A program made the translations under genes and the position numbers. Source: Candidatus Gastranaerophilales bacterium (GTDB lineage Bacteria > Cyanobacteriota > Vampirovibrionia > Gastranaerophilales > Gastranaerophilaceae). Taken from it: a stretch of 55,135 nt of DNA. The notes beneath the pieces were generated by a model. That model was not told the DNA's origin. It did no database searches and worked only from the letters and a program-made list of their open reading frames with translations. The stretch is taken from positions 1-55,135 of the forward strand of contig CALVCQ010000012.1 in assembly GCA_944326115.1 (NCBI GenBank), written 5' to 3'. Below are positions 1-55,135 of the stretch, piece by piece. Within the stretch, counting starts at the first letter, position 1, and each line of letters begins with the position of its first letter.

Positions 1-498
1 CCTGAAATATTGTTTACATTGGCTGTTTCACTTGCTGTAATTGATACAGAGCCTTCTTCTGATGAAATTATTGTATCGTCGCCCTGTGTAACGGAAGCAC
101 CCGAAACAGTTACGCCTGTTTGACCTGAAATATTGTTTACATTGGCTGTTTCACTTGCTGTAATTGATACAGAGCCTTCTTCTGATGAAATTATTGTATC
201 TTCGCCCTGTATTACAGACTCACCTGAAATATTTACACCAGCATTTCCGGAAATATTGTTTACCTGGGCATTTCCGCTGCTTGCAGTAATTGCTACATTG
301 CCGGTTTCTGACGAGATTGTTGTACCAGCACCCTGAGAAACAGAGTTACCAGAAACAATGACACCTGTTTGTCCGGAAATATTGTTTACCTGTGCAGCTC
401 CGTTTTCTGCTGTAATCAGAACTGAGCCTTCTTCTGAAGATATTGTCGTATTTGCACCTTGAGTAACAGAGTTTCCTGATATTGTTACATTTGTTTGT
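1..498 (-). repeat. Tandem 41-42-codon repeats inside the exoprotein gene
   Basis: Four consecutive copies begin near 1, 124, 247 and 373 (periods 123, 123 and 126 bases) and may continue off the left edge. Each encodes a unit of the type TISSEEGSVxITA, then VNNISG, then VSGxSV. Bases 1-77 and 124-200 are identical as read by eye, which suggests recent duplication. The period is a multiple of three, so the frame is kept. Confidence 0.85.
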
Positions 499-9400: not shown

Positions 9401-11147
9401 TAATATTAACATTTCCCGGAGTCGGAGCAGAGGAAGAATCGTTGTTAATAACGACATTGCCGCCAAAATTGGAAATATTATTTACATCAACATCTCCGCT
9501 GCCTGTATTTGTGATAGTAACATTGCCGGAATCACCATTTATATTTATCGAAGAATCAGCTGTTTGACTGAAACCTTCCTGAGAAGTTATATTAACTGAT
9601 TCCATAGCATCAACGGATTGTGAAATATTTACTTTTTTGGAGCCGTCAAGATTAACATTATTTGCATTGGAAATAGTTGCAATATTCAAATCCGAATCAT
9701 TACTTTTTAAATAAATATCAGAATTTGCGCCCAATACATTTACATTATTAGCAACATTTACATTTAAAGCCTGATTTGACGAACCGACATTATAGTCAGC
9801 TGTTATATTCAAATCATTACCGGAATCAAAAGCATTAAAGGTATCATCTGCCTGTGTAATATCACCCTGTGCGGAAACATTAATAGTGTCTGTAGATGAA
9901 ACTGTATCTTTTAAAGTTATATCTCTGCCCGACAGGCTTACTGTACCGCCTTGAGCCTGATTAGTAATTTTATTTGATTCTATATCTGTACTTGCTGAAA
10001 CTGATATATTTCCTGATTCAGTATTTAAAATTTCAGAATTAGCACCCTGTACAAATTCAGTGGAAGAAATAGTAACTCCGTTTTTCGAATTAATATCACC
10101 GTCTACTGTTAAAGTACTTGCAGAATAATTTACACTTGCGGCATCAATATTCGATGATTCATTCTGTGTTACATCACGATCTATGGTAATGTTAACATTG
10201 CCTGCTGCAGTTATATCATTATTTAGGGTAACTCTTCTTGTTGTGGCAGCCGAATTGGCACCTATATTAACATCTTGAGCAGACATAACCTTTGAACCGA
10301 CCGTAATAGTACCGTCCCTTGCGTCAAGATTTACATCTCCGGCGGATTGAATCAAACCGCCTGAGGCATTTATATTGTTTGCATAAAGCTTTACATCACC
10401 GCCAGCGTCAGATATAAATTCCGCATTTACAACACCTTCATCATTTACTATTTCTGACATATCAACATCGGGAAGTTTGGTTTTATTAAAGCCGTCTTCG
10501 TTAAATCCCGTAACCAGTGCGGAATCAGCCCCGAGCATAACATTACTGCCTGCTGATAAATCTATTTTATCAGATGCAAAAACTTTTCCCTGAATACTCA
10601 CACTGGCTGTAGAACCTTCTGATGACAAACCGCTGATGTTATCATAAGTAATACCCTGACCGAGTCCGAGAAGAGAATTGTAAGTACCCTGCGCCGGCGT
10701 AATAGTCTGCAGACTGCCTACATTCATAATGCCCGAGGCACCTACAATCATACCCATAGGCGAAACAAAAATCACATCACCGCCGATATTTCCGCCTTTT
10801 AGAGAATTAAATATACCGTAGATACTTACTCTGTTATCAACAAGGTTTACATATCTGTCTGCACCCTGAGCAAATATCAGGTTTGCAATATCACCTCTTG
10901 AAAGATCAAAATCCGTAAAATGATGGAACCCTGTGCCGTTATTTATCAAACCTCCGGTTATATTGGTTGTATTACCGTCAGTACTTACATTAGTATTATA
11001 ACCCGGTCCTGCGTTAATATTTGTAGCATAAGAAGTCTGGATACCAAAAATAAAAACGGTCAATGACGCAGCAAGCGACTTTTTGAAAAGTTTCAAAAAG
11101 TCTATATTATTCAGGCTTTTTTTATTCTGTGGCATACATAATCCCAA
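1..11147 (-). CDS. Giant TpsA-type filamentous haemagglutinin-like exoprotein, C-terminus beyond window
   Basis: Large secreted adhesin-type protein, exported by two-partner secretion through the transporter encoded divergently at 11318. The frame is open from the start to base 1, about 3,715 codons; I checked that the frame at 198-200 agrees with the frame at the start. The first 35-40 residues form an extended signal peptide (KSLAASLTVFIFGIQTSYA, then TN). Next comes a TPS/haemagglutination-activity domain containing NNGTGFHHF, an NRVSIYGIF stretch and VIFVSPMGMIVGASG. The rest is Asn/Gly/Ser/Thr-rich beta-helix repeat such as GSVVLNGIDTDINT and GYIRLDSA. Start choice: TTG at 11147 has GGAG 7 bases upstream; the first in-frame ATG is 11135 but then GGAG is 19 bases away. 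A TATAAT lies at 11166-11171 on this strand. No toxin or cell-wall anchor can be judged because the C-terminus is missing. Confidence 0.93.
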   Translation of the reverse strand, partial: MGLCMPQNKKSLNNIDFLKLFKKSLAASLTVFIFGIQTSYATNINAGPGYNTNVSTDGNTTNITGGLINNGTGFHHFTDFDLSRGDIANLIFAQGADRYVNLVDNRVSIYGIFNSLKGGNIGGDVIFVSPMGMIVGASGIMNVGSLQTITPAQGTYNSLLGLGQGITYDNISGLSSEGSTASVSIQGKVFASDKIDLSAGSNVMLGADSALVTGFNEDGFNKTKLPDVDMSEIVNDEGVVNAEFISDAGGDVKLYANNINASGGLIQSAGDVNLDARDGTITVGSKVMSAQDVNIGANSAATTRRVTLNNDITAAGNVNITIDRDVTQNESSNIDAASVNYSASTLTVDGDINSKNGVTISSTEFVQGANSEILNTESGNISVSASTDIESNKITNQAQGGTVSLSGRDITLKDTVSSTDTINVSAQGDITQADDTFNAFDSGNDLNITADYNVGSSNQALNVNVANNVNVLGANSDIYLKSNDSDLNIATISNANNVNLDGSKKVNISQSVDAMESVNITSQEGFSQTADSSININGDSGNVTITNTGSGDVDVNNISNFGGNVVINNDSSSAPTPGNVNINGNIQADTGYVDIDSSGGYSQSGTINAYGADGTGSSVSIDAQGDVNAGQITGQENIAINGNNVTLSETIISDQGGVTVDAQGDVNTGEITAQDDINISGNNVQFSDLISSHQGGINVDAQGNISQTGSDKTLEASDDVTLNAGGDVGSENQTVVVSTENGSVKVDAAGGVNVTGQDTNIELGNITAGTDYNIITTGEGELIFNKDLSDVEGDLTFITDKDLNIDSQITATGDVTLTSNQGDIILNSIISSTEENVNLTAEGAIYHKDGYSDTSISAQKDINLTANSGDIGTFSGTDVSQAINLNAGGTVNAEGGNVALESSESLKVGNINFSKENPQTLVSIKTTGADNGNIDIAGMIKGSDISIDAAQNITQSTQGQSITASGDLSLISQTGSIGETDNAINFSAENVSASANSGSVVLKGIDTDIKTSQISAKDNIDLSTENTGADPEKGKIIIENDLTTQDGYISLDSAKNLEINNNISAGQSVTLGAQEGITQKENTTVTSGTSASAQDGSGNILITNETSGDISLQNVTANKGNISVVNNAAGSDIILNSVLNSTSSDVSLNSVGNILQSAATDTASITAAGDIVLNAVNAGTADKKIMVNTDGSLYSTSDNLYVQDTEGDLTLGVLNIGQSADITATGNILQDSQDRDAIVSSGNININTTGSIGSTDNSLALNVTGDGRLNAQASDIYLGGTSVSTGQINAVNDLNINTVDKNGSVTIADNMTAGGNIDISSGGGVSHTGGIITRDDRNSGHINIGATNGDISLGNVVNNNGEINITGTENAADVVLNDVIQSAGGDINISTVGNIVQNGTNPSVSTDSNITFATQTGSVGSGENKLVVESTGGSVSADSGGSVYLTGQDTNINASDITAGNNIDLTVTGTGNINIDSALTTDNGYISLVTDNGIVIDNLISASEGVNLNAQGGSITQNSALDKAINAGTDITLSADGDIGSDGTNLSLNAAGSVTADGQNVYLTSPDADLNIASVTSGGVVNLKTDNAGNVNLGGLVTGTDVIINAADGVYQTGAGKTIDASGDLSLVAGKESVGQQGQAINFSANSVSAEAAKSVVLLGEDTDINTSSIKATENIDLTTRVTNPDSDKGVITVSNELNTTNGYIKLDSAKALNINENISAGQHITLNANGGIVQGSGTSITSGTSAAAQNGDINISNSGSGKIELTQVSSSKGGINISNNVESGDNADIVLGDITSVDGAVTITNSAADNDVILNSLVQSTGNNAGISITSNGAVIQSHDNLALNTTGNIILDTVTGAGSETQALKLGADGTLTAGGDEIYITSPEKSLNIAGITSTGTVNLDTLSDSANINIHGGISGGDITLTSGSGIYQTIDGQSITADGNLTLTAQNGSIGQKDKALTFKADKVTAQAAGGSVVLNGIDTDINTGSIIAGQDIDLTTTGSGNINVEDVVDAAGYVSLNSAQHLTLNHNINSDSYIELGASQGLTINSNIEAAGNVTVDTQGGVTQQSGSITSTGGGFSAENTGTGDINFNNITANKDVQITNTAQNAAVSVSGVTSQTGGASFATSGNLSAENVTASGDIEISSNAQDASVTADTITSQAGSVNISSLQDITADAISASNNVVISNTNGAGTINAGGITSTSGSIDIDSSGELTVTDGGLTTNTGDITLDAAGNIIASTINAGGNVAISNAAGAGTINAGGITSTSGSIDIDSSGELTVTDGGLTTNTGDITLNAAEDVLLSSLVNSAGTVDIISAGSVLQNIANNDKAIQAGSDVNIEAVNNIGSLENALQINSNGSINADADSLYIANKEGGLNAGEITAQNNANLTASGNITQTAGGFVTANNINLNADGYQIGSNGNALNVNTSNAVNAKADDIYLTSENDLTTGRIDAQNTADITTTGEQTDITISNLVSADNVNINASGSVLQNSTLDKTIEAGNLNLTAQNGSIGETGNAIDFTASGNLQAAASQAVVLNSVGHDLNTSSVTAGTSIDLSTEGSGKITVSSDLNAQGGYIRLDSAEDLALNKDLTATDYIELASKGGNVTLDNSEITAGTYVDIDSNGSITQTNSMINAGTDVILNAVQNIGTSDNAIALNAKNDVTVENAVDVYLKSEDTLNIAGVNAAGTVNIDATKAGNVNIKDEIKGNDVTISAADNIYQSMEGQAITASGDVVLSAAAGDIGQTDNAINVGADSVQASAVSGSVVLNAIDTDLNTNDITAGENIDLTTTGTGNINVQSNLDANGYIRLDSSNNLNLGQYNVTSDDYIYIGANNGITLDSNIDAQTGITIDSGAGISQNSGYINSASGDISVANNGANGINLNNVNAQGGSVVISALESASGDIVLDNVLAADDITVTNSSSGQSNVNLNDLTTSNGNIFAENTSGGDIELDSVLTAQNGTISLNADKGNITQSHSNASLVSGGDITLAANNAGSQTQYINTQSAANVNADGTNIYIESNQNGYNIGNINASGNYTNETVNIKSNSGDVILNGLTKGNAVTIDSANNVVQDSSLEKSIEAGTVTFNAQGGFIGTQDNRIDMSVTGAVNIPNADSVYLNGVDNGTDVAVNLGNINAENTVDVTSETGMRLNGLVDTKNAILTAQGDILQSEDTDLSIDADSIRLTSANGNIGATGDAIDFKTTDLQASAINGAVVLNGVDSSINTNRIEAGTNIDLSTTGSGDITIHDALTANGYIRLNAANSLNVNHDLTAQDYVELAARNGEVLLDSIISGTDVTVSATGGVEQTGGQIISSGSNGVNITNSQDGGINLTDIQAAGGQINITNDATASGDVVTGTLSANSGVNITNNSKTQADVVLNKITNTNGAVNIANTSGGDVELNNLVQSSGDININASTGDITQTFNGTSIDSGANVSLIAGNTIGTTNQKLLMNAGGNVSLEASNLYITSPDSNLNIVSINQNREDKTLGDVIIETTTGNLSVTDNITADNIDLDSAGTLNTTGELLADTIDMMAALALTTGGNITGQTNVTISGNSVTQGANTTISSEEGSVLITAENGAAQVNNISGQTGVIVSGNSVSQGAGTTISSETGNVAITASSGNAQVNNISGNAGVNISGESVIQGEDTIISSEEGSVSITASETANVNNISGQTGVTVSGASVTQGDDTIISSEEGSVSITASETANVNNIS
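4258..4568 (-). repeat. Near-identical 119-base duplication, 192-base offset, in the exoprotein gene
   Basis: Bases 4258-4376 and 4450-4568 differ at about two positions by eye. The offset of 192 bases is 64 codons, so the copies are in the same frame. They encode a segment containing GGITSTSGSIDIDSSGEL. Confidence 0.85.
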
Positions 11148-11287: not shown

Positions 11288-11317
11288 TTATATTACTTGT
11301 AGGAATTGTTGATTAGA

Positions 11318-13864
11318 ATGAAAAAATTAATATTCTTAATAAGCCTGTGCTTATTAAGTCAAAACTTTACCATAGCAGCGGAAAATACAGAATATTCCCA
11401 AAACAAAACAACCTCCGCTCCTTTACCGTTAACCGGTGCTTTTGCACAGGCCATTGATGCGGTTTGCAATTCCAAATCAAACGGAAGTTCGCAGATTTAT
11501 AAAAGAAATACTGCTACTGAGTCTAATGTAAAAAAATCAACGGCGTCTCATATCTTTGGAGCCGCTCCGATTCCTGCAATTGTTCCAGATCCTGTCTCTG
11601 ATAATATTCTAAATAATACTACAGTATCTGCGCCGATTCCTCATCAGGCAAAAAACTCTGCGGCTAAAAACAGTTCCGCACAAAAAACCAATGCAAAAAT
11701 TGCCCAAAACACAACATCACAGGCTAAAATTGCACCTACACCACAACCTGTGAAAACTCCTGTTGTTAAAAACAATCCCACACAAAAAAACAATGTAAAA
11801 ATCACACAGAACACAAAACAAACCGCCGCTGCAGCTCCTGTTCCGAATACACAAAAGTCATCTGTAAAAACAAATATACCTGCAGTACAAGAAAAAAAAT
11901 CAATAACGCAAACCACAAAAACAGTATCTAATCCGGTAAAAAACACCGCACCAATTCCTGTACCTGCAGTACAAAAATCAAAACCTGCAGAAGAAAACAA
12001 AATTTCTAAACAACAAACTTCTAATCAACAGCCTCCTACGGCTAAAAAGCAGGAATATCCGCAGCAAAATATTACAGAAACTGCTGAAAATACACCATCA
12101 GCAAGACAATCTGCTGCGGGTATTCCGCCTATTCCTAAATCAGGAGAAAAGTTAAAACAAGAATACAGAGAAGAAGTAGCTGACCAACAAAAATACAAGT
12201 TCTACGAAGATGAAGAGCTGAAAAATGCAGCAAATTCTCAGCCAAAAGAGGAGAAAAAGCTTAATCTTCGTGTCAACAAAAAATCCGACAGACCGCCTGT
12301 TATTGTAGAGGACAATCTCTCTGACCCGAATGACAATACACAGGTGCGTGCAACAATTACAAAAGTAGAATTCACCCCTTCAAGAGTATTTTCAGAAGAA
12401 GAGCTTCAAAAACTTGCCTCTCCTTTGCTTTCTCAACCTGTAACACTGGATGATATCAAAAAAGTTGTGGACGGAATAACCAGATGCTATATTCTCGGCG
12501 ACTACGCAACATCAAAAGCATATCTGCCTCCTCAGGATTTATCTGACGGAGTACTTAAAATCAATCTGTTTGAAGGAACAGTAGGCAAAGTTACAGTAAA
12601 AGACAACCGCTGGACAAAAACAGGTTATATCAAAAACCGTGTAGCACCTACTCCTGGAGATTTATTAAAAGTAGGTGAACTGGAAGAAGACGTTATATTA
12701 TTCAATAAAAACAATGCAGTCAAGCTTAAAGTAGGTCTTTCTGCCGGGGAAGAACCGGGACAGACAGATATAACATTGAATACAGAAGACCCGTTCCCGT
12801 TCCGTCTTGCCTTCCTTGTTGACAATCAGGGTCGACAGACAATAGGCACAACGAGATGGGGAGGTATGATTACTGCTGACAGTCTGTTCGGGCATCGTGA
12901 CAGGATGTCTTTAGGAGGATACCTTGGAAGCGGCAATCGTGTCGGTTTTGCCGACTACAACTTCCCGTTAAACAAATACGGAACAAGGCTCGGTGCATCC
13001 GTTTCCGCTGGCAACATATCCGTTGTAAACGGACCGTTAAGAGACTTCGGCATAGGCGGTACTTCTCAAATTTACAGTGTTTACCTTACACATCCGTTAA
13101 TAGACAAAGTTGATTTTAATCTCGGCTCCTACACATCTGCAAATATAAAACGCTCAACAACTGATATTTCCGGAGTAAAACTTCCTACATTAGGAACTTT
13201 CTCTTTGACACAGGGATTTACAGCACGAAAAGATACAGAAAAAGGTATCTGGTACACAGGTCACTACGGTTCTGTCGGATTTGAAGCATTAGGCGGAGAT
13301 GAAGATTTCTTCAAATACGAAGGAAATATTATGAGGTTACACGATTTCGGACACGGAATCATCGGTCAATTTAGAGTTGCCGGTCAATATTCGCCTCAAG
13401 ACAGACTCCCGTGGATGGAACAATTCCAGATAGGCGGTATGTCTACAGTCAGAGGCTACTCTGAAGGTCTGCTGCTTGGCAAAAGCGGATATCTTGCCAG
13501 TGCAGAAATAATAACCCCTCTGCCATTCCTGCCAAAAGCAATCGGATCTGACAGACTCGGATATATTTACCCGAGAGAAATGATAAAAGGTGCTGTATTT
13601 ATGGATCACGGTATGGTATTCCCTTACAAAGGCGGTCAACCTGTAGACAGCGGAGAATTTTTAATGAGCTGGGGTCTCGGACTCAGAGTAAACTTGAGAA
13701 AAGATGTTGCGGCACGTTTTTACTGGGGATTCGGGCTTAATAACAAATATGACGTTGACCAGAAACTCGGCAGATTCCACTTTGATATTACCTGTGCTCC
13801 TGACATAGGCAGGGTTGTCGCCGGCAGACATCCTAAACAAAAGAAGAAAAAAGAGAATCTTTAA
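11318..13864 (+). CDS. TpsB-type outer-membrane transporter (ShlB/FhaC family)
   Basis: Outer-membrane beta-barrel of the Omp85/TpsB superfamily, expected to export the divergent exoprotein. 848 residues, longer than the usual 550-600. Domains: signal peptide (KKLIFLISLCLLSQNFTIAA, then E); a low-complexity Pro/Lys/Gln/Thr-rich linker over about residues 45-300; a POTRA domain from about 345 (ITKVEFTPSRVFSEEELQKL); and a C-terminal barrel. The conserved VRGY motif is at about residue 711 (GGMSTVRGYSEGLLLGKSGY). ATG 11318 fits the signal peptide; TTG codons at 11306 and 11309 are in frame and nearer to the AGGA at 11301. The long disordered linker is unusual for the family and could span the periplasm or bind peptidoglycan (inference). 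Confidence 0.93.
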   Translation: MKKLIFLISLCLLSQNFTIAAENTEYSQNKTTSAPLPLTGAFAQAIDAVCNSKSNGSSQIYKRNTATESNVKKSTASHIFGAAPIPAIVPDPVSDNILNNTTVSAPIPHQAKNSAAKNSSAQKTNAKIAQNTTSQAKIAPTPQPVKTPVVKNNPTQKNNVKITQNTKQTAAAAPVPNTQKSSVKTNIPAVQEKKSITQTTKTVSNPVKNTAPIPVPAVQKSKPAEENKISKQQTSNQQPPTAKKQEYPQQNITETAENTPSARQSAAGIPPIPKSGEKLKQEYREEVADQQKYKFYEDEELKNAANSQPKEEKKLNLRVNKKSDRPPVIVEDNLSDPNDNTQVRATITKVEFTPSRVFSEEELQKLASPLLSQPVTLDDIKKVVDGITRCYILGDYATSKAYLPPQDLSDGVLKINLFEGTVGKVTVKDNRWTKTGYIKNRVAPTPGDLLKVGELEEDVILFNKNNAVKLKVGLSAGEEPGQTDITLNTEDPFPFRLAFLVDNQGRQTIGTTRWGGMITADSLFGHRDRMSLGGYLGSGNRVGFADYNFPLNKYGTRLGASVSAGNISVVNGPLRDFGIGGTSQIYSVYLTHPLIDKVDFNLGSYTSANIKRSTTDISGVKLPTLGTFSLTQGFTARKDTEKGIWYTGHYGSVGFEALGGDEDFFKYEGNIMRLHDFGHGIIGQFRVAGQYSPQDRLPWMEQFQIGGMSTVRGYSEGLLLGKSGYLASAEIITPLPFLPKAIGSDRLGYIYPREMIKGAVFMDHGMVFPYKGGQPVDSGEFLMSWGLGLRVNLRKDVAARFYWGFGLNNKYDVDQKLGRFHFDITCAPDIGRVVAGRHPKQKKKKENL

Positions 13865-15909: not shown

Positions 15910-15986
<77 letters not shown>

Positions 15987-27178: not shown

Positions 27179-27233
27179 TTGTAATCATGCTTTTTTTGCG
27201 TTATTTTGATTTTAAATATGCATAGATATGCAT
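27179..27233 (+). promoter_or_regulatory. Putative fba promoter and palindromic site
   Basis: TTGTAA at 27179-27184, a 17-base spacer and TATTTT at 27202-27207 form a plausible promoter. Just downstream, 27218-27233 is a perfect inverted repeat (ATGCATA-GA-TATGCAT) lying where a repressor would block transcription. The regulator is unknown. Confidence 0.4.
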
Positions 27234-27257
27234 TGTAACAAAAGAGGAGAAAGCAAA

Positions 27258-28217
27258 ATGGCAGAAAGAAAATTAGTTGGAACAGGCGAAATGTTCAAAA
27301 AAGCACTTGCCGGCAAATATGCTATCGGTGCTTACAACGTAAACAACATGGAAATTTTGCAAGGTATTGCAGAAGCTGCTGAAGAAACAAGATCACCTAT
27401 AATTCTTCAAGTTTCAGCAGGTGCAAGAAAGTATGCAAATCAAACTTACCTTATCAAACTTGTTGAAGCTGCATTGGCTACAACAACTGTTCCTATAGCT
27501 CTTCACTTAGACCACGGTGCAGATTTTGATATTTGTAAAGCTTGTATCGACGGCGGTTTTTCTTCAGTTATGATTGACGGTTCAAGATTCCCGCTTGAAG
27601 AAAACATTGCTTTGACAAAACAGGTGGTAGACTACGCACATGAAAGAGGTGTTTCTGTAGAAGCAGAACTCGGTAAACTGGCAGGTGTTGAAGATGATGT
27701 AAAAGTTGCAGCTCATCATGCAACCTATACAGATCCGGAAGAAGCAGCAAGATTTGTTAAAGAGACAGGTTGTGATTCACTTGCAATCGCTATCGGTACT
27801 TCTCACGGCGCTTACAAATTCAAAGGCGAAGCTAAACTTGATTTTGAAAGATTGGCTGAATGTAAAAAAGCTATCTTTGACGTAGTTGGTTACGATTATC
27901 CTATCGTACTTCACGGTTCATCTTCCGTACCTAAAGCATTTGTTGAAAAATGCAACAAATACGGAGGAAACTTGCCAGATGCACAAGGTGTTCCGGAAGA
28001 AATGCTTGCATTTGCTTCTAAAAACGGTGTAGCTAAAATTAACATCGATACAGACTTGAGATTGGCTATGACATCTACCATCAGAGAATTCTTTATCGAA
28101 CATCCTGAAAAATTTGATCCCCGTGAATACATGGGACCAGGCAGAACAGCCGTTAAAGAAATGGTTATGCACAAGATGAGAGATGTTCTTGGCACAGCCG
28201 GTCATGCTGATGACTAG
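27258..28217 (+). CDS. fba: Fructose-bisphosphate aldolase, class II
   Basis: 319 residues, zinc-dependent aldolase of glycolysis and gluconeogenesis (fructose-1,6-bisphosphate to DHAP and GAP). Motifs: AYNVNNMEILQGIAEAA at the N-terminus; ALHLDHGADF with catalytic Asp85 and zinc ligand His86; VEAELGKLAG with the structural Glu; IGTSHGAYKFKG and VLHGSS with the two further zinc histidines; NIDTDLR for phosphate binding. GAGGAGAAAG lies upstream of the ATG at 27258; an upstream in-frame ATG at 27228 would add ten residues but places the ribosome site inside the gene. It is monocistronic with its own terminator. Confidence 0.95.
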   Translation: MAERKLVGTGEMFKKALAGKYAIGAYNVNNMEILQGIAEAAEETRSPIILQVSAGARKYANQTYLIKLVEAALATTTVPIALHLDHGADFDICKACIDGGFSSVMIDGSRFPLEENIALTKQVVDYAHERGVSVEAELGKLAGVEDDVKVAAHHATYTDPEEAARFVKETGCDSLAIAIGTSHGAYKFKGEAKLDFERLAECKKAIFDVVGYDYPIVLHGSSSVPKAFVEKCNKYGGNLPDAQGVPEEMLAFASKNGVAKINIDTDLRLAMTSTIREFFIEHPEKFDPREYMGPGRTAVKEMVMHKMRDVLGTAGHADD

Positions 28218-28248
28218 TGACTTTAGTACATATTCTTAAATAACATAC

Positions 28249-28286
28249 AAAAGAGTGCTTTATTTGTTAATAAAGTGCTCTTTTTT
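28249..28286 (+). terminator. Intrinsic terminator of fba
   Basis: 15-bp stem AAAAGAGTGCTTTAT / ATAAAGTGCTCTTTT with two G-U pairs, a short loop and a run of six T. It begins 32 bases after the stop. Confidence 0.88.
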
Positions 28287-28385
28287 ATGTCAATCATTTA
28301 CAGACTCTGTCCCAGCAAATATATCATTATTGACTAAATATATCCGAAATGTTAGCATAATCAAAAAGCTCGACGGATAAGAATA

Positions 28386-28805
28386 ATGACAGATAAAAGA
28401 TTAAGCAGTGAACAGGATTTTATAGAATATTTAAAAAAGATTAATTTTTCAAAGCATCTGGCAAAAATAGCAAAAAAGTTAAAAGAAAAAAAAGTTATAA
28501 TCTACGGTGCAGGTGCATTTTTTCAAACTATTAACAGAGAATACGATTTATCATGCCTGAATATTATAGCAATTGCCGACAGAAAGTTTGTTAATCACGA
28601 AGACGGTGAAGAATTTTTAGGTTACAGACTTTGCAGCCCTGATGAAATGGAATCTCTGCAGACTGATTATGTGCTTGTAAGTATGATAAATTTTATAAAT
28701 GTAATAGAAGACTTAGAAGAGACAAGTCTGAAAAATGCAAAAGTAAAAATTAAACCTTTAATAAATAAACCTTTTATTGATATCTTAAAAGAGCTCTGGA
28801 GTTAA
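28386..28805 (+). CDS. Small Rossmann-type protein A of the glycan cassette
   Basis: 139 residues. Core: KKVIIYGAGAFFQTINREYD (nucleotide-binding GxGxxF loop at about 39-45), IIAIADRKF with an acidic residue ending strand 2, GYRLCSPDEM and DYVLVSM. This layout is seen in small sugar-cassette proteins and in N-terminal domains fused to glycosyl- or methyltransferases. Its own catalytic role is unknown. More than half of its residues match protein B at 31986 by eye. It ends 6 bases before the glycosyltransferase start, so it is the first gene of the cassette. Confidence 0.7.
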   Translation: MTDKRLSSEQDFIEYLKKINFSKHLAKIAKKLKEKKVIIYGAGAFFQTINREYDLSCLNIIAIADRKFVNHEDGEEFLGYRLCSPDEMESLQTDYVLVSMINFINVIEDLEETSLKNAKVKIKPLINKPFIDILKELWS

Positions 28806-28811
28806 AATCAG

Positions 28812-29792
28812 ATGGCACAGAACTCTATGATTTCAATTATATTACCGGTATACAATGCTCAGGAATATATAGAAAAGTGTCTTGATTCTTTATTGACACA
28901 AACATATAAAAATATTGAAGTTTTATGTGTTGATGATTGTTCTGCGGATGGTTCATTAAAGATAATAAAAGATATTGCACAAAAAGATAAAAGAATAAAA
29001 GTTTTATCAACAGAAACAAACAGCGGACCTGCTACTGCAAGAAACATCGGGCTTGATAATGCACAAGGCGAATTTATTATGTTTTGCGATAACGATGATA
29101 AGTATTCACAAAATATGTGTGCAGTTATGATTGAGGCAATGAAAAAAAACAATGCGGATTTAGTTGCTTGTAAAGCCAATATAGAAAATAAATATCTGGA
29201 TGAAGAACTCGCAAATTATATTAACTGCAATCCGACAGGAACGTTTAATCTTGAAGGTCATTTGAAACATATTATAAACGTACTTTTATGGAACAAAATT
29301 TATAAAAAGTCTTTTATAGATGAATACAATATAAGATTTCCTGATGGCGTTTCTGCAGAGGATGATGCCTTTATTATTCAATACCTCAGCGTAATTCAGA
29401 AATATTGCGGGTTAAAAGATTGTTTATACAATCATCTTTTCAGGACAACTTCGTATACTAATACAATAGGGAGAGCTAAATCCGATGAAAAAAAATTTGA
29501 TAAAATAAAAATAATAAAAAATATGTATGATTTTTTGATAAAAAACAATATTTTTAAAAGAGAAGAAGAACATTTTCAAAACAGAGTGAGAGCGGAGCTT
29601 CGCTATATGTTTTTATATGCAAAAAGTAACGACGACAAAAAAGAAATAATTCGTCTTTATAACAATTTTGTAAAAAATGCAGAATATTTAGATTATAAAA
29701 AGTATAATTACCACTATTTTTATAAAAGAATGTACAAAAGGCTAAATCCGGTATTACTGTTTTCTTTGATAAAAAAATGCTGCTGGTTTTAG
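28812..29792 (+). CDS. Family 2 glycosyltransferase
   Basis: 326 residues, GT-A fold. N-terminal nucleotide-sugar site ISIILPVYNAQEYIEKCLDS and VLCVDDCSADGS; SGPATARNIGLDNAQG; DxD-like metal motif in MFCDNDDKY (residues 93-96); then an acceptor part with GVSAEDDAFIIQY, where the ED pair is the likely base region. The C-terminus is basic, YKRMYKRLNPVLLFSLIKKC, and may associate with the membrane. It transfers a sugar to a surface glycan or lipid carrier; donor and acceptor cannot be told. Confidence 0.92.
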   Translation: MAQNSMISIILPVYNAQEYIEKCLDSLLTQTYKNIEVLCVDDCSADGSLKIIKDIAQKDKRIKVLSTETNSGPATARNIGLDNAQGEFIMFCDNDDKYSQNMCAVMIEAMKKNNADLVACKANIENKYLDEELANYINCNPTGTFNLEGHLKHIINVLLWNKIYKKSFIDEYNIRFPDGVSAEDDAFIIQYLSVIQKYCGLKDCLYNHLFRTTSYTNTIGRAKSDEKKFDKIKIIKNMYDFLIKNNIFKREEEHFQNRVRAELRYMFLYAKSNDDKKEIIRLYNNFVKNAEYLDYKKYNYHYFYKRMYKRLNPVLLFSLIKKCCWF

Positions 29793-29806
29793 ATAAAGAG
29801 GTTACG

Positions 29807-31093
29807 ATGAAAAGCCCGAAAGATATGAAAATTATACAGATAGATATTACAAATGCCTGCGTAAACAGGTGTTCTAACTGTACAAGATTCTGCGGACATC
29901 ATACTAAGCCGTTTTTTATGGATTTTGAAACATTCAAAAAGGCTGTTGATTCTTTTGAAGGATGGGAAGGCTGCGTCGGTATAATAGGAGGAGAGCCTAC
30001 GCTGCACCCTGAAATAGAAAAATTTATTGATTATTTAAGAGAAAAAAGAATTGGTGCTCCGCTTAAACTTTCAAGAGAACCTATTTTTGATATGCAGGAA
30101 CATATTTATAAAAAGTTGAATAATACATGTTCAAAAATTGGTTTCTGGTCATCATTAAACAAAGGATACTACAGACATTTTGAAACTATAAATGATTCTT
30201 TCGACTGGCAGCTTTTAAATGACCACAATAATAAATGTTTGCATCAGGCAATACTTATGGCACGCAAAGATTTGGGAATAAGTGATGAAGAATTTAAAAA
30301 AAGAAGGGATAATTGCTTTGCGCAAAACACCTGGTCTGCAACAATTACACCGAAAGGGGCTTTTTTCTGTGAAATTGCAGCTGCTCTGGATATGCTTTTT
30401 AACGGTCCTGGCGGATGGGCAATAGAAAAAGGATGGTATAACAGAACGCCTGATGAATTCACAGAACAGCTGCAATGGTGTGAGTTGTGTTCTCTATGTC
30501 TTGATGTACCCCAGAGAATATCCTGTGAAGATATTGATGATATTACGCCTACTCTTTTAAAAAAACTTCAAAAAATAAACTCTCCTAAAATAAAAGCAGG
30601 AAAATATTGTCTGCATGATATCAATGATTATAAAAAACACAAACAGGTATACAAGTCTTTTGAACACTGTGATGATTATATGCAGGCAGGTTCAAATATA
30701 AGGACAACAACAGACAACAGAAATTATTACCCGAGAGATTTTGTAATAGTAAATTTAGAAAATGCGTCCTCTTTTATAAACAAAAAAACAGACTGGGTTA
30801 TACTTTCAAAAAATAATAAAGATGCAAAAAAAATAAAAAACTATTTAAAAAAAATGGTTATCAACCCCGGATGCCTGTACAGATATAAAGGAGAATACAT
30901 CTTTAACCCGCTGGCAAGAAGTATCAGGGATAAAATAAAATCTCCACAAAATTTTGACTTAAAAAAACTGACAACATATTATGTTTCTGACAAAATAATA
31001 GATATAAAAATAAAAAAAACTGATTACTTATCACAAATTTTTGGCAAGAAATTTGTCAAAATAATAAAAATATTTAAATATATTTGGTTTTAA
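29807..31093 (+). CDS. Radical SAM protein with SPASM-like cysteine region
   Basis: 428 residues. The ATG at 29807 has AGAGG 6 bases upstream; an upstream in-frame codon would overlap the previous gene. The 4Fe-4S/SAM motif ACVNRCSNCTRFC has Cys18, Cys22 and Cys25 (Cx3Cx2C), followed by IIGGEPTLHPE. A second cysteine region resembles a SPASM/twitch domain: a Cys before SATITPKGAFFCEIAAA, then QWCELCSLCLDVPQRISCE. The last ~150 residues are a lysine-rich domain of unknown kind. By analogy with radical SAM enzymes acting on amino sugars it may modify (oxidise or epimerise) a sugar of the glycan; peptide modification is the alternative. Confidence 0.85.
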   Translation: MKSPKDMKIIQIDITNACVNRCSNCTRFCGHHTKPFFMDFETFKKAVDSFEGWEGCVGIIGGEPTLHPEIEKFIDYLREKRIGAPLKLSREPIFDMQEHIYKKLNNTCSKIGFWSSLNKGYYRHFETINDSFDWQLLNDHNNKCLHQAILMARKDLGISDEEFKKRRDNCFAQNTWSATITPKGAFFCEIAAALDMLFNGPGGWAIEKGWYNRTPDEFTEQLQWCELCSLCLDVPQRISCEDIDDITPTLLKKLQKINSPKIKAGKYCLHDINDYKKHKQVYKSFEHCDDYMQAGSNIRTTTDNRNYYPRDFVIVNLENASSFINKKTDWVILSKNNKDAKKIKNYLKKMVINPGCLYRYKGEYIFNPLARSIRDKIKSPQNFDLKKLTTYYVSDKIIDIKIKKTDYLSQIFGKKFVKIIKIFKYIWF

Positions 31094-31111
31094 AATCAAA
31101 AAGGATTGTAT

Positions 31112-31957
31112 ATGAAAATACTAGTAACAGGAGCAAACGGATACATTGGTTCACATGTGGTAAAAGCACTTCTTGATGCTAAAAATGAAGTGATTGCCGT
31201 TGATTTTAAGCACGATAATATTGATAACAGAGCAAAAAAATTTGATACAGACATATTTGACTTTGATAAAAATTATTTTGAACTTTTTGAAAAGCCTGAG
31301 GTATTGATCCACTTTGCCTGCAAAGATGTCCCTGTACATAACTCTATATATCATATTGAATCAATCCCCCTGCATTTTAAATTTATAAAAAATCTCGTTG
31401 ATAACGGACTTAAGCAGGTAATAACAGTAGGTTCAATGCACGATGTAGGGTATTTTGAAGGTGCTGTAAAAGAAAATACAGAACCGCATCCTATGACTTT
31501 TTACGGTGTGTCAAAAGATACTTTAAGAAGACTTGTTGAAATTTATACAGACGATAAAGATGTTGTCCACCAGCATCTTAGATTTTTCTACACATACGGC
31601 GATGACGAAAAAAGCTCGGGTTCGATTTTTGCAAAAATTTTTCAAATGGCAAAAGACGGACAAAAAACATTTCCTTTTACGGACGGGAAAAATCAATTTG
31701 ACTACATAGAAATTAATGAACTGGCACAACAGATTACGGCAGTAGCAATGCAAAAAGAAATATCAGGAATAATCAACTGCTGCTCCGGTAAACCTGTCGC
31801 AATAAAAGATCAGGTGGAATTCTTTATAAAAACACACGGTCTTGACATTAAACCGGATTTTGGCAAATATCCTTCAAGAAAATATGATTCTCCCTGCATA
31901 TACGGAGATATCACAAAAATACAAAAAATTTTAAATTCATCAAAACATATAAAATAG
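31112..31957 (+). CDS. NAD-dependent epimerase/dehydratase (SDR superfamily)
   Basis: 281 residues, slightly short for the extended SDR family. N-terminal NAD loop TGANGYIGSHV (residues 6-16), Asp31 ending strand 2 (AVDF), Ser108 in TVGSMH, and the catalytic Tyr131/Lys135 pair in FYGVSK. The C-terminal half has QFDYIEINELAQQI for substrate contact. AAGGA lies before the ATG at 31112. It probably interconverts or reduces a nucleotide sugar for the GT2 enzyme upstream. It follows the radical SAM gene by 18 bases. Confidence 0.9.
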   Translation: MKILVTGANGYIGSHVVKALLDAKNEVIAVDFKHDNIDNRAKKFDTDIFDFDKNYFELFEKPEVLIHFACKDVPVHNSIYHIESIPLHFKFIKNLVDNGLKQVITVGSMHDVGYFEGAVKENTEPHPMTFYGVSKDTLRRLVEIYTDDKDVVHQHLRFFYTYGDDEKSSGSIFAKIFQMAKDGQKTFPFTDGKNQFDYIEINELAQQITAVAMQKEISGIINCCSGKPVAIKDQVEFFIKTHGLDIKPDFGKYPSRKYDSPCIYGDITKIQKILNSSKHIK

Positions 31958-31985
31958 TACAATAGTTGACAGGAGCATATAAAAG

Positions 31986-32387
31986 ATGGATAAATTGGAA
32001 CATTTGCAATATTTGGAAAAAATTAATTTTTCAAAACGACTAAAAAATTTAGAAAAAAAATACAAAAATAAAAAAATTATAATATACGGTACAGGTCAAT
32101 TTTTTCAGGTGATTAATGAAAATTACGATCTTGGAGGTCTGGATATTATTGCAATTGCAGACAGGAAATTTTATGAACACAAAGAGGATGAAACATTTTT
32201 GGGATACAAAGTTTGCTCACCCGATGAAATGGTAAAACTAAAGCCTGATTGTGTACTCGTTGCTACTTTAAATACCGTAAATTTAATAGAAGAACTGGAA
32301 TATACAGTATTGAAAAAATCAAAAATCAAGTTAAAACCATTAATAAACAAACCTCTTTTTGACATCTGGAAAGAGATATGGGGATAA
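31986..32387 (+). CDS. Small Rossmann-type protein B, paralogue of the 28386 product
   Basis: 133 residues with the same layout as protein A: EKINFSKRL, KKIIIYGTGQFFQVINENYD, IIAIADRKF, FLGYKVCSPDEM, and an almost identical tail LKPLINKPLFDIWKEIWG (protein A has IKPLINKPFIDILKELWS). It is the last gene of the cassette, so the cassette is bracketed by two copies. The function of neither is known. Confidence 0.7.
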   Translation: MDKLEHLQYLEKINFSKRLKNLEKKYKNKKIIIYGTGQFFQVINENYDLGGLDIIAIADRKFYEHKEDETFLGYKVCSPDEMVKLKPDCVLVATLNTVNLIEELEYTVLKKSKIKLKPLINKPLFDIWKEIWG

Positions 32388-32806
32388 ACATTATCTCATT
32401 AACTTTAATATTGTCATATAAATACAGATAGACGTATTCTGGACATATTTTAGTATGTTACAACGCCTGCACTCTGTACTTAACATAATAAAAAAAATAC
32501 GAAATCAGCAGTTTTCCATGACATTAATATAGTGTCGCAGCTGTATCCTGATCAACGAAACCGCCAGCTGCTCGCTTTTTCAAATAAAATTTAAAAAATT
32601 AGCATTAAAATATCGTGAAAAAAATCACTTTTTTAATATTCAAAATTTTATATATTTCGTATAAAAATTTTATAAATATAATCCTTTTATAATCTGCTTT
32701 TTAACAAATACAGTTTTATTAATAATTGTAAAAATAACACTTGCAATTTTCTTTTTTATAGGTTATATTAATAGTGAATAATTTCACGATAAAGGAGACT
32801 TACACT
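32388..32806 (+). promoter_or_regulatory. Intergenic region: weak terminator-like hairpin and adhE promoter
   Basis: No gene is seen in these 419 bases. 32537-32580: stem GCAGCTG/CAGCTGC with a 21-base loop followed by CTCGC and five T, possibly ending the glycan cassette transcript. 32741-32769: TTGCAA, a 17-base spacer, TATATT, a good promoter placing adhE transcription near 32776. The rest is AT-rich without visible structure; no known redox-regulator box was recognised. Confidence 0.55.
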
Positions 32807-35449
32807 ATGGCAACTAAAAAGCAAGCCGAAAAAGAAAAGCTCGAAAAAGCTTTTAACAAATCCAGTGAAGTTAAAACTCACGACGATTTAAAATTAATCA
32901 TTGAAAGAGCTAAAAAAGCTCAAAAGATTTATGCTACTTATTCTCAAGAACAGGTAGACAAAATTTTTAAAGCAGCAGCTACTGCCGCTGACAAAATGAG
33001 AATTCCTCTTGCCAGAATGGCTGTTGAAGAAACAGGCATGGGCGTTATGGAAGACAAAATCATAAAAAACCACTTTGCTGCAGAATATATCTACAACAAA
33101 TACAAAAACATGAAAACTGCCGGTGTTATCGAAGAAGATAAAGCTAACGGCATCAAAAAGGTAGCAGAACCTATCGGCGTAATTGCAGGCGTTATTCCTA
33201 CTACAAACCCGACTTCAACTGCTATTTTTAAATCATTAATAGCTTTAAAAACAAGAAATGCTCTTGTTTTCTCACCGCACCCCAGAGCTAAAAAATGTAC
33301 TATAGAAGCTGCAAGAATCGTTCTTGAAGCAGCTGTTAAAGCAGGTGCACCGGACGGACTTATTGCATGGATTGATGAACCGTCAGTTGAACTTTCAGCA
33401 GCATTAATGCATCACGAAGACATCGATATGATTCTTGCTACAGGCGGTCCCGGTATGGTAAAAGCAGCTTACTCATCAGGCAAGCCGGCACTTGGCGTAG
33501 GTCCGGGCAACACACCTGCTGTTATTGACGAAACTGCTGATATCAAAATGGCTGTTTCTTCAATTCTTATGTCCAAAACATTTGATAACGGCATGATTTG
33601 TGCTTCCGAGCAGTCTGTTGTTGTTGTTAAAGATGTATATGAAGAAGTTAAGAAAGAATTCCTCTTAAGAGGAGCATATATTCTTAACAACAAAGAAAGA
33701 GAAAAAGTAGGTGCTCTTGTTATTCAGAACGGAAGAGTAAATGCTGCTATCGTAGGTCAGCCTGCTGCTAAAATAGCAGAAATGGCAGGTATTGAAGTTG
33801 ATCCTGAAACAAAAGTTCTTATCGGCGAAGTTACTGACATTTGCGAAGAAGAACCGTTTGCTCATGAAAAACTTTCACCTGTATTGGCTATGTATAAAGC
33901 AAAAGATTTTGATGATGCTGTACAAAAAGCTTATGATCTGGTAGACTTTGGTGGAGCAGGTCACACATCCGTTCTTTATACAGATGAAAGATTCCCTGAA
34001 AGAATCAATGCATTCGGCTTGAAACTACACACAAGCAGAATCTTAATCAACTCACCTTCATCTCAGGGCGGTATCGGTGACTTGTACAACTTCAGACTCA
34101 ATCCGTCATTAACACTGGGCTGCGGCTCATGGGGCGGAAACGCTGTTAGTGACAACGTAGGACCACAACACTTATTAAACATAAAAACAGTTGCTGAAAG
34201 GAGAGAAAACATGCTCTGGTACAAGGTTCCTGCAAAAGTATATTTCAAAAGAGGAGCTTTGGATCTCGCTCTCAGAGAATTGCAAGGTAAAAAACGTGCA
34301 TTTATTGTTACGGACAGATTCCTGTTCAATTCCGGCATGACAAACTCAATCACAAATACACTGGATGATATCGGTGTTGATTATCAAATTTTCTTTGATG
34401 TTAAACCGGATCCGACATTGTCTACTATCAACGATGCAATGATGATGGTTAAGGCTTATGAACCGGATGTATTCATTGCACTGGGCGGCGGTTCTTCTAT
34501 GGACGCAGCTAAAATACTGTGGTTGATGTATGAACAGCCTGATACTGTATTTGAAGATATTGCAATGAGATTTATGGATATCAGAAAGAGAATCTGTATG
34601 ATTCCGCCTCTCGGCAAAAAAGCTGAAATGGTTTGCGTACCGACTACATCAGGTACAGGTTCTGAAGTTACTCCGTTTGCAATCATCACTGATGACCAGA
34701 CAGGTGTTAAATACGCAATCGCTGATTACGCATTGACTCCGAATGTAGCTATTGTTGACCCGAATCTTGTTGATACAATGCCAAAAGGTTTGACTGCTGT
34801 TTCAGGTTATGACGCAATTGTTCACTCACTGGAAGCTTACGTATCAGTAATGGCAACAAACTTCACAAATTCTAATTCATTAGAAGCTTTGAAATTGTTG
34901 TTCAGATATATGAAACGTTCTTACGACAACGGTGCAAAAGATCCGGTTGCAAGAGAAAAAGTTCACTATGCAGCAACAATTGCAGGTATGGCTTTTGCTA
35001 ACGCATTCTTAGGTATTTGCCACTCTATGGCTCACAAACTGGGTGCTATGTTCCACGTACCTCACGGTATGGCTAACGCTTTGTTAATCAACCAGGTTAT
35101 CAAGTTCAATGCTACTGACAAACCTGTTAAACAAACAGCCTTCCCGCAATACAAATTCCCTAATGCAAAAGCTAAATACGGTCAAATCGCTGATGAATTA
35201 GGTCTCGGCGGTAAAAATGATGATGAAAAAGTTGAATTACTGCAGCAGGCTTTGATTCAAATGAAAAAAGATCTTGGTTTGCCAATGTCAATTAAAGAAT
35301 TCGGTATTGAAGAATCTGAATTTATGGCAAAACTCGATGAAATGGTTGAACTTGCATTTGACGATCAGTGCACAGGTGCAAACCCGAGATATCCATTGTT
35401 TGAAGAAATCAAACAAATGTATCTCGATGCATACTACGGCAGAATATAA
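32807..35449 (+). CDS. adhE: Bifunctional acetaldehyde-CoA/alcohol dehydrogenase
   Basis: 880 residues, the usual AdhE length. The N-terminal acetylating aldehyde dehydrogenase (to about 440) carries PIGVIAGVIPTTNPTSTAIF and the catalytic Cys265 in NGMICASEQSV. The C-terminal iron-dependent alcohol dehydrogenase (from about 465) carries FIALGGGSSMDAAK, PTTSGTGSEVTPFAI and the metal histidines in HSMAHKLGAMFHVPHGMANA. It reduces acetyl-CoA to ethanol with two NADH, a fermentation end reaction; the protein usually forms spirosome filaments. AAGGAG precedes the ATG at 32807. Codon use is richer in G/C-ending codons than in its neighbours, as in highly expressed genes. Confidence 0.97.
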   Translation: MATKKQAEKEKLEKAFNKSSEVKTHDDLKLIIERAKKAQKIYATYSQEQVDKIFKAAATAADKMRIPLARMAVEETGMGVMEDKIIKNHFAAEYIYNKYKNMKTAGVIEEDKANGIKKVAEPIGVIAGVIPTTNPTSTAIFKSLIALKTRNALVFSPHPRAKKCTIEAARIVLEAAVKAGAPDGLIAWIDEPSVELSAALMHHEDIDMILATGGPGMVKAAYSSGKPALGVGPGNTPAVIDETADIKMAVSSILMSKTFDNGMICASEQSVVVVKDVYEEVKKEFLLRGAYILNNKEREKVGALVIQNGRVNAAIVGQPAAKIAEMAGIEVDPETKVLIGEVTDICEEEPFAHEKLSPVLAMYKAKDFDDAVQKAYDLVDFGGAGHTSVLYTDERFPERINAFGLKLHTSRILINSPSSQGGIGDLYNFRLNPSLTLGCGSWGGNAVSDNVGPQHLLNIKTVAERRENMLWYKVPAKVYFKRGALDLALRELQGKKRAFIVTDRFLFNSGMTNSITNTLDDIGVDYQIFFDVKPDPTLSTINDAMMMVKAYEPDVFIALGGGSSMDAAKILWLMYEQPDTVFEDIAMRFMDIRKRICMIPPLGKKAEMVCVPTTSGTGSEVTPFAIITDDQTGVKYAIADYALTPNVAIVDPNLVDTMPKGLTAVSGYDAIVHSLEAYVSVMATNFTNSNSLEALKLLFRYMKRSYDNGAKDPVAREKVHYAATIAGMAFANAFLGICHSMAHKLGAMFHVPHGMANALLINQVIKFNATDKPVKQTAFPQYKFPNAKAKYGQIADELGLGGKNDDEKVELLQQALIQMKKDLGLPMSIKEFGIEESEFMAKLDEMVELAFDDQCTGANPRYPLFEEIKQMYLDAYYGRI

Positions 35450-35465
35450 TCTGATTTAACGTTGC

Positions 35466-35513
35466 AAAAAATACAGCATCTGGAATAAATACAGATGCTG
35501 TATTTTTATTTTT
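35466..35513 (+). terminator. Intrinsic terminator of adhE
   Basis: 13-bp perfect stem AATACAGCATCTG/CAGATGCTGTATT, a 9-base loop and then T-rich sequence. The A-run on the left arm means it could also act on the opposite strand. Confidence 0.9.
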
Positions 35514-35545: not shown

Positions 35546-35683
35546 TCTTGGATTATTGGCGTTCGTAAGGTTTGGTATTCCGTTTCGAAATTTTTTTCTA
35601 AAATTTCTTCTCTCCATCTACCTTACTCACATGGGCACTCGCTCGGCTTTTAAGCCTCGACTCCGTGCCCGCTCAAAATCCGC
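35546..35683. repeat. Dispersed repeat R, unit A
   Basis: Begins TCTTGGATTATTGGCGTTCG and runs through a conserved part of about 70 bases, then a variable hairpin: GGGCAC...GTGCCC closing around GGCTTTTAAGCC (about 35634-35670). The next unit starts immediately, at 35684. Small ORFs here run through the repeat and are not conserved in frame. This is part of a gene-free region, 35514-36349. Confidence 0.8.
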
Positions 35684-35822
35684 TCTTGGATTATTGGCGT
35701 TCGTAAGGTTTGGTATTCCGTTTCGAAATTTTTTTCTAAATTTTTCCATTTCGTCGACCTTGTACACATGGCTGTCGCTCACTTCGTTCGTCTTCACAGC
35801 CGCTCTTTCACTGTTTACAAAT
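35684..35822. repeat. Dispersed repeat R, unit B
   Basis: Same conserved first part as unit A, 138 bases later. It then diverges to TTTCGTCGACCTTGTACACATG and a hairpin with different stem bases, GGCTGT...ACAGCC around TCACTTCGTTCG. The copy at 55004-55135 matches this unit with one base inserted. A one-base length difference between copies breaks every reading frame, so it is non-coding. Confidence 0.85.
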
Positions 35823-35910
35823 CAATAATACAAAGAAAAACCTTTGATAATTTCGTGAAGCCATTTTGCACGTTTCGCCCCAGCTCAACGGCAAAAGAAG
35901 GCAAATCCGC

Positions 35911-35983
35911 TCTTGGATTATTGGCGTTCGTAAGGTTTGGTATTCCGTTTCGAAATTTTATTCTAAAATTTCTTCTCTCCATC
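35911..35983. repeat. Dispersed repeat R, unit C (partial)
   Basis: Third copy of the conserved first part (TCTTGGATTATTGGCG... to CTTCTCTCCATCT), ending where repeat T starts. It lacks the variable hairpin found in units A and B. Confidence 0.8.
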
Positions 35984-35987
35984 TGGG

Positions 35988-36265
35988 TGAAATGTACAAC
36001 TACAGGCTTGAGATGCAGCAGAGTGAAGGGGAATTACATATCAGGACACCGGGTATACAAACGAGTCCAACTCAGACAGATAATTTTCATATTGTCAACT
36101 GACTCCGACTACTTGTTGAACCTGTGCAATAAGCAAGTTCAATATTTAACAATAAGTCCGGCACAGTCAACAAGCGCATGGGGTCACTTCCGTAAAATGC
36201 TAGACTCGGCGCCACTCGCACTCCGTGTACCACTCCTACAAGCGAGGTCCCACTCAGACAGATAA
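35988..36265. repeat. Dispersed repeats T and S next to R
   Basis: T copy 1 (35988-36084) contains GCTTGAGATG, TACATATCAGGA and CTCAGACAGATAAT; the same words occur at 49790-49880. T copy 2 (36224-36265) is a fragment containing GTGTACCACT and CACTCAGACAGATAAT. Between them, S (36085-36112, TTTCATATtGTCAACTGACt... ) matches 54975-55002 with two differences. No gene is supported in this stretch. Confidence 0.6.
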
Positions 36266-36349
36266 TAATTACGGTTTGTAAAATACCTGATTAACGCCGG
36301 TTGATTTTTATGGTAATATTTATTTGTTAATAAAAGTTCGGAGTTTTTC

Positions 36350-55003: not shown

Positions 55004-55135
55004 TCTTGGATTATTGGCGTTCGTAAGGTTTGGTATTCCGTTTCGAAATTTTTTTCTAAAATTTTTCCATTTCGTCGACCTTGTACACATGGCTGTCGCT
55101 CACTTCGTTCGTCTTCACAGCCGCTCTTTCACTGT
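55004..55135. repeat. Dispersed repeat R, unit D, continues past the right edge
   Basis: Matches unit B at 35684-35815 along its whole visible length, with one extra base in the A/T run after TTTTTTTCTAAA. The S word lies directly upstream. It includes the same hairpin GGCTGT...ACAGCC. The minus-strand frame across the A/T run is broken relative to unit B, so it is not coding. Confidence 0.85.

Follow-up and report, generated by a model that had tools for sequence, protein, structure and literature searches.

Why does a radical SAM enzyme sit among sugar genes? In the 55,135-nucleotide stretch analysed here (hereafter the window; contig G000:C12 of a 2.15 Mb Gastranaerophilales genome), the initial annotation described a glycan cassette in which such an enzyme lies between a glycosyltransferase and a sugar epimerase, bracketed by two paralogous Rossmann proteins, A and B, and it proposed radical chemistry on a sugar. 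Five open reading frames on the + strand at 28386–32387 bear out the order A, GT2, radical SAM, SDR, B (Table 1). A and GT2 are 6 bp apart, GT2 and the radical SAM frame overlap (14 bp apart when the conserved radical SAM start is used), and the last two gaps measure 12 bp and 28 bp, spacing so tight that the five probably form one operon. An aldolase gene at 27228–28217 precedes the cassette, and the terminator-like repeat and promoter-like site between it and A form the operon boundary. Downstream, 386 bp lie between B and the adhE frame. G+C content is ~31% in the cassette, against 36–40% in the flanking aldolase and adhE genes.

Table 1. The cassette and its edges, in window coordinates.
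Feature	Position	Strand	Description
Terminator-like inverted repeat after aldolase gene	28245..28285	+	Seen by eye; absent from terminator-scan matches
Promoter-like site TTGACT-17-TAGCAT	28330-28358	+	From a promoter scan that overall was not above chance
Protein A	28386..28805	+	139 aa; free-standing small Rossmann domain
GT2	28812..29792	+	326 aa; family 2 glycosyltransferase (PF00535)
Radical SAM	29807..31093	+	428 aa from conserved ATG; ORF opens at 29777 (438 aa)
SDR	31112..31957	+	Extended nucleotide-sugar epimerase/dehydratase/reductase type; frame starts with TTG at 31106, translation probably at the ATG at 31112
Protein B	31986..32387	+	133 aa; another small Rossmann domain standing alone
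adhE and its upstream region	32588..35512	+	Conserved right edge of exchange hot spot

The enzyme at the centre of the cassette represents a rare, uncurated radical SAM family that does not look peptide-modifying. Radical_SAM (PF04055) scores above its Pfam cut-off (E 5e-7), and Pfam detects neither an RRE/PqqD domain nor any further domain. No NCBIfam radical SAM model comes near its cut-off (best TIGR04317, 29.7 bits vs 380); the N-terminus matches several peptide-maturase models weakly. We numbered residues on the 428-aa form from the ATG at 29807, where homologs begin. Across an alignment of 19 sequences, the SAM-cluster motif CxxxCxxC (C18-x3-C22-x2-C25) is invariant, as are C170-x17-C188 and C225-x2-C228 after the barrel and an eighth, spare cysteine, C29, just past the CxxxCxxC loop. 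The cysteines that had been called SPASM-like are thus present as auxiliary cysteines, though in a four-cysteine twitch pattern rather than the full SPASM set; C170, C188, C225 and C228 are the predicted ligands of one twitch-like auxiliary cluster. Twitch domains hold a single auxiliary cluster, which in BtrN, an enzyme that oxidises a cyclitol carbon, is bound by four cysteines (PMC9012708). C-terminal to the twitch part of the cassette enzyme lies an alpha/beta domain in which NPG is almost invariant. Residues ~300–400 resemble, by eye, a worn-down GT-A domain; PF00535 matches there in one of the 19 homologs at 0.004, and profile comparison of this part with the cassette GT2s gives E 0.065 at a probability below 1%.

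The predicted fold places the enzyme nearest to SpeY, a twitch radical SAM dehydrogenase of the spectinomycin pathway. SpeY (PDB 7wzv, 7wzx, 7x0b) is the best match of the AlphaFold model (428 aa, mean pLDDT 79), with Foldseek E 6e-7, Z 14.2 and rmsd 3.5 over 236 aligned residues, a likeness that spans residues 1–303 only at ~16% identity and barely covers the C-terminal part. Fold over residues 3–302, CxxxCxxC, twitch domain and perhaps a sugar-like substrate are held in common. Unlike SpeY, the cassette enzyme has an added C-terminal alpha/beta extension and belongs to surface-glycan operons rather than an antibiotic cluster. The two also lack a significant sequence match: sequence searches of the PDB returned none for the radical SAM part, and in a profile search of the PDB SpeY scored E 0.22, within chance, with BtrN absent from the matches. 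BtrN (PDB 4m7t), the 2-deoxy-scyllo-inosamine dehydrogenase of butirosin biosynthesis, is the second-best fold match (Z 10.1, rmsd 3.8, 188 aligned). It is a shorter protein acting on a free substrate, and we know of no glycosyltransferase operon around it. SuiB, MoaA, PqqE, viperin and DesII all score below these two, with the peptide enzymes and MoaA at Z 9.0 or less.

These scores bear on two readings that would take the enzyme away from sugars. If it were a SPASM-type RiPP maturase placed among glycan genes by accident, its SPASM/twitch-type cysteines and weak peptide-maturase matches would be accounted for. However, it carries no RRE/PqqD domain, its four invariant auxiliary cysteines compare with about seven or more for two SPASM clusters, a precursor gene would not fit inside the operon, and the two gaps hold nothing convincing. 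SuiB and the other peptide enzymes also trail SpeY by ~5 Z units and BtrN by ~1, and glycosyltransferases neighbour the family across phyla, so that we regard a peptide-modifying role as very improbable. The second reading, a viperin-like nucleotide-modifying antiviral protein, starts from a PADLOC pVip match (E 1e-4) confined to the N-terminal 70 residues, but nothing beyond the general radical SAM motif is matched. Viperins score Z 7.0 at most, SpeY 14.2, and viperins are not known to have a twitch cluster; the chance that the enzyme is one of them is negligible. With the general radical SAM motif as the sole match, a defence system was rejected for the locus.

The family is patchily distributed and keeps company with glycosyltransferases. 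Full-length members occur in 6 of the 23 genomes of the window's genus in 8 of 383 genomes of the order and, within a set of 348 genomes centred on a Lachnospiraceae member, in 3; named records supplied 13 loci, including ones from Lachnospiraceae, Veillonellaceae, Selenomonadaceae and Synergistales. Plasmids and phages yielded no radical SAM homolog and hence no sign of a mobile carrier. A tree built on the cores unites the Gastranaerophilales copies with a single Selenomonadaceae copy in a supported group separate from the other Firmicutes, which suggests at least one transfer. A glycosyltransferase is the direct neighbour in 17 of 21 family members and lies within two genes in one more; two of the 21 end at a sequence edge. 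One locus departs from this pattern: in a Selenomonadaceae MAG (L012:6962-9253), a stop-broken radical SAM gene lies between what by eye are fliP-like and fliR-like flagellar genes, a placement that is an insertion or a chimeric contig.

Firmicutes homologs (536–606 aa; Lachnospiraceae, Veillonellaceae) share ~40–45% identity, the same invariant residues and glycosyltransferase neighbours with the cassette enzyme, but differ in having an A/B-like domain fused at the C-terminus and mostly no SDR neighbour. Several of their clusters contain genes that by eye are CDP-sugar-like, as would suit a sugar deoxygenase, eliminase or other lyase in the manner of DesII and AprD4. We consider such a lyase improbable, as DesII reaches only Z 7.2, worse than SpeY and BtrN. 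Two variations in gene content stand apart from this comparison. Within the window's genus, L050:7524-9752 (G014:C13) encodes a 742-aa member with an FkbM-like methyltransferase domain fused to its C-terminus. Single Lachnospiraceae clusters in L014, L015 and L018 each hold two divergent copies of the family, suggesting two radical steps or two substrates per glycan.

In Gastranaerophilales, the SDR travels with the radical SAM enzyme. The two cassette partners are clear members of their families: Glycos_transf_2 (PF00535) matches the GT2 at E 6e-39, and Epimerase (PF01370) matches the SDR at E 8e-23 (81.6 bits vs a cut-off of 20.9), with YGVSK as its YxxxK motif. Within the genus, SDRs of at least 67% identity occur only in the window's genome and in G007, G004 and G021, and in all four the radical SAM gene is one or two genes away; G003 has a 49% identical relative without radical SAM. 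With radical SAM in 6, SDR in 5 and both in 4 of the 23 genomes, the hypergeometric chance of such overlap is ~0.008, uncorrected for relatedness. This co-occurrence fits oxidation followed by reduction, and so counts against a one-step radical epimerase resembling the aminoglycoside enzymes HygY and NeoN, with the SDR serving a separate step. Under that alternative the enzyme would, like HygY and NeoN, invert a sugar carbon and draw the hydrogen from a spare cysteine, and C29 is exactly the one invariant cysteine beyond the three SAM-cluster and four auxiliary ligands. It stays alive through C29 because a single cysteine sets epimerase versus dehydrogenase activity in HygY, going by the title of the HygY paper as cited in PMC10991966. 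C29 lies just after the CxxxCxxC loop, its role as donor to the substrate is putative, and we think one-step epimerisation unlikely while giving it more weight than the other alternatives.

Proteins A and B are free-standing versions of a domain that Firmicutes carry fused to the same enzyme. As first noticed, they share over half of their residues (60% identity over 129 aa, E 5e-50; global alignment score 404 vs −27 ± 13 for shuffles) and end in nearly identical tails, IKPLINKPF and LKPLINKPL. In profile–profile comparison, the C-terminal Rossmann domain of the Firmicutes radical SAM proteins matches the A/B profile at a probability of 97% (E 1e-11), and an HMM built from those C-termini alone recovers A at 1.5e-8 and B at 7.5e-9. 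Pfam gives sub-threshold Rossmann matches only (A 14.0 vs 23.5, B 17.4 vs 23.4), the weak hits being PF08484 and PF17836, below both cut-offs. The B model (pLDDT 85.5) fits best to the C-terminal region of the dTDP-sugar C3-methyltransferase KijD1 (Z 9.3, rmsd 3.4, 115 aligned), a PF08484 region, and also matches 3nkl, named UDP-quinovosamine 4-dehydrogenase (Foldseek E 1.2e-3). B shares the fold of the KijD1 C-terminal region and of PglD_N domains, but A and B are free-standing. Because the B model matches KijD1 and 3nkl, holding a nucleotide sugar would be their likeliest role. A/B-type domains also occur in DUF4422 proteins and fused to FkbM, other methyltransferases, GT2 and hexapeptide transferases; in so promiscuous a domain, fusion to radical SAM is weak proof of a specific partnership.

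As members of a widespread accessory family, A and B are not what defines the cassette. The annotation had singled out the bracket and had itself named, as an outcome that would speak against it, A/B-like genes present everywhere independent of the cassette. That outcome leaves the bracketing idea without support: all 23 genomes of the genus have such genes, usually at least two per genome, against six with full-length radical SAM. The full five-gene order was found in the window only. G007 and G004 carry A-GT2-radical SAM-SDR with an A ortholog at the head (78% and 61% identity) and no B ortholog, and A and B are not sisters in the tree, B's own placement being unsupported. Recent cassette duplication, another suggestion made from the sequence, is unlikely because B is old, divergent and without an ortholog in the sister cassettes.

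The site of the cassette, upstream of adhE, is an exchange hot spot. AdhE proteins are 94–99% identical across the genus, and the glycan cassette upstream of the gene differs between genomes: G007 and G004 have A-GT2-radical SAM-SDR there, G014 and G001 combine a B-like gene with GT8, methyltransferase and FkbM genes, and G015 and G009 contain other sets. An A/B-like gene often heads a glycan cassette, accompanied by GT8 and methyltransferase genes in G014 and G001 and by unrelated genes elsewhere. The window is homologous to G007 over 28317–31920 and again from 32611. B falls in the unshared part, and the best reading of the bracket is therefore an A native to the cassette plus a B picked up in the variable region. 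The outer edge of the hot spot in relatives is usually a 292-aa gene, and the aldolase that replaces it here implies that the window's left side was rearranged or that the MAG was misjoined. The only tRNA gene lies far away, at 15910, leaving no tRNA-borne integration to invoke. The two end genes of the operon, 60% identical and at a site that carries different cassettes in relatives, could instead encode an obligate heterodimer or serve as recombination arms for cassette duplication or exchange. The absence of B from the G007 and G004 cassettes speaks against this, as does the mere 60% identity of A and B, which do not pair in the tree, and an A–B pair is not needed when one A/B-like gene heads different cassettes; we judge it quite improbable, a shade more so than a lyase.

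Radical chemistry on a sugar, as the initial annotation proposed, remains the best reading of the enzyme, because its core resembles SpeY and BtrN above the peptide enzymes, its neighbours across phyla are glycosyltransferases and an SDR accompanies it in Gastranaerophilales; we infer this chemistry from fold and gene company only. On balance we favour a capsule- or O-antigen-like surface-glycan mini-operon in which a twitch radical SAM enzyme acts on a sugar together with the SDR, the GT2 and accessory A/B proteins. The radical SAM enzyme would cleave SAM and abstract a hydrogen atom from a carbon of the sugar, most likely nucleotide-linked and possibly already glycan-linked. The auxiliary four-cysteine cluster would then take up an electron to leave a keto sugar; alternatively, hydrogen would be returned from the other face to give an epimer. 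The SDR may act on the same sugar, either reducing the keto product, with net inversion, or supplying the substrate, and the GT2 would transfer the finished sugar. A and B would most plausibly serve the operon's enzymes by binding the sugar's nucleotide moiety. Counting against this reading are the chance-level sequence score of SpeY, the restriction of the fold likeness to residues 1–303, the promiscuity of the A/B-type domain, the Firmicutes enzymes mostly without an SDR neighbour and the flagellar locus in Selenomonadaceae.

A broader proposal is tentative, and we hold it with less than even confidence. Twitch radical SAM enzymes of a hitherto undescribed family may make rare surface-glycan sugars in gut bacteria, served by a Rossmann domain that carries nucleotide sugars, as a fusion in Firmicutes and as the separate proteins A and B in Gastranaerophilales. 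Inverted sugars would then arise through a dehydrogenase paired with a reductase, in a setting other than antibiotic biosynthesis. SpeY and BtrN, the characterised twitch dehydrogenases of sugars and cyclitols compared here, come from antibiotic pathways, and in the part of the literature that we covered we found no radical SAM enzyme working on the synthesis of surface polysaccharides. Should the family act on nucleotide sugars, anaerobic gut bacteria would diversify their surface glycans by radical chemistry, and surface glycans bear on phage and host recognition. The fused and free states of the Rossmann domain yield a directly testable prediction: A or B should bind the enzyme or its nucleotide-sugar substrate.

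Two other parts of the window stand out. On the 3' side of adhE, at 35546–36266, are dispersed repeats comprising a 74–132 nt unit in three copies and a ~180 nt unit, 85–99% alike. Further copies lie at the right end of the window (55004–55135), at the contig end G000:C41 (L057:1-77) and in G007, G020, G001 and G003. These form an interspersed family that may break assemblies, and the short open reading frames over them are probably spurious. Near the left end, a gene for a ShlB/FhaC-type outer-membrane transporter (11306–13864, + strand) adjoins a giant tandem-repeat frame of 3715 aa or more on the opposite strand (3–11147), which has no Pfam match; the two are likely a two-partner secretion pair with a giant exoprotein.
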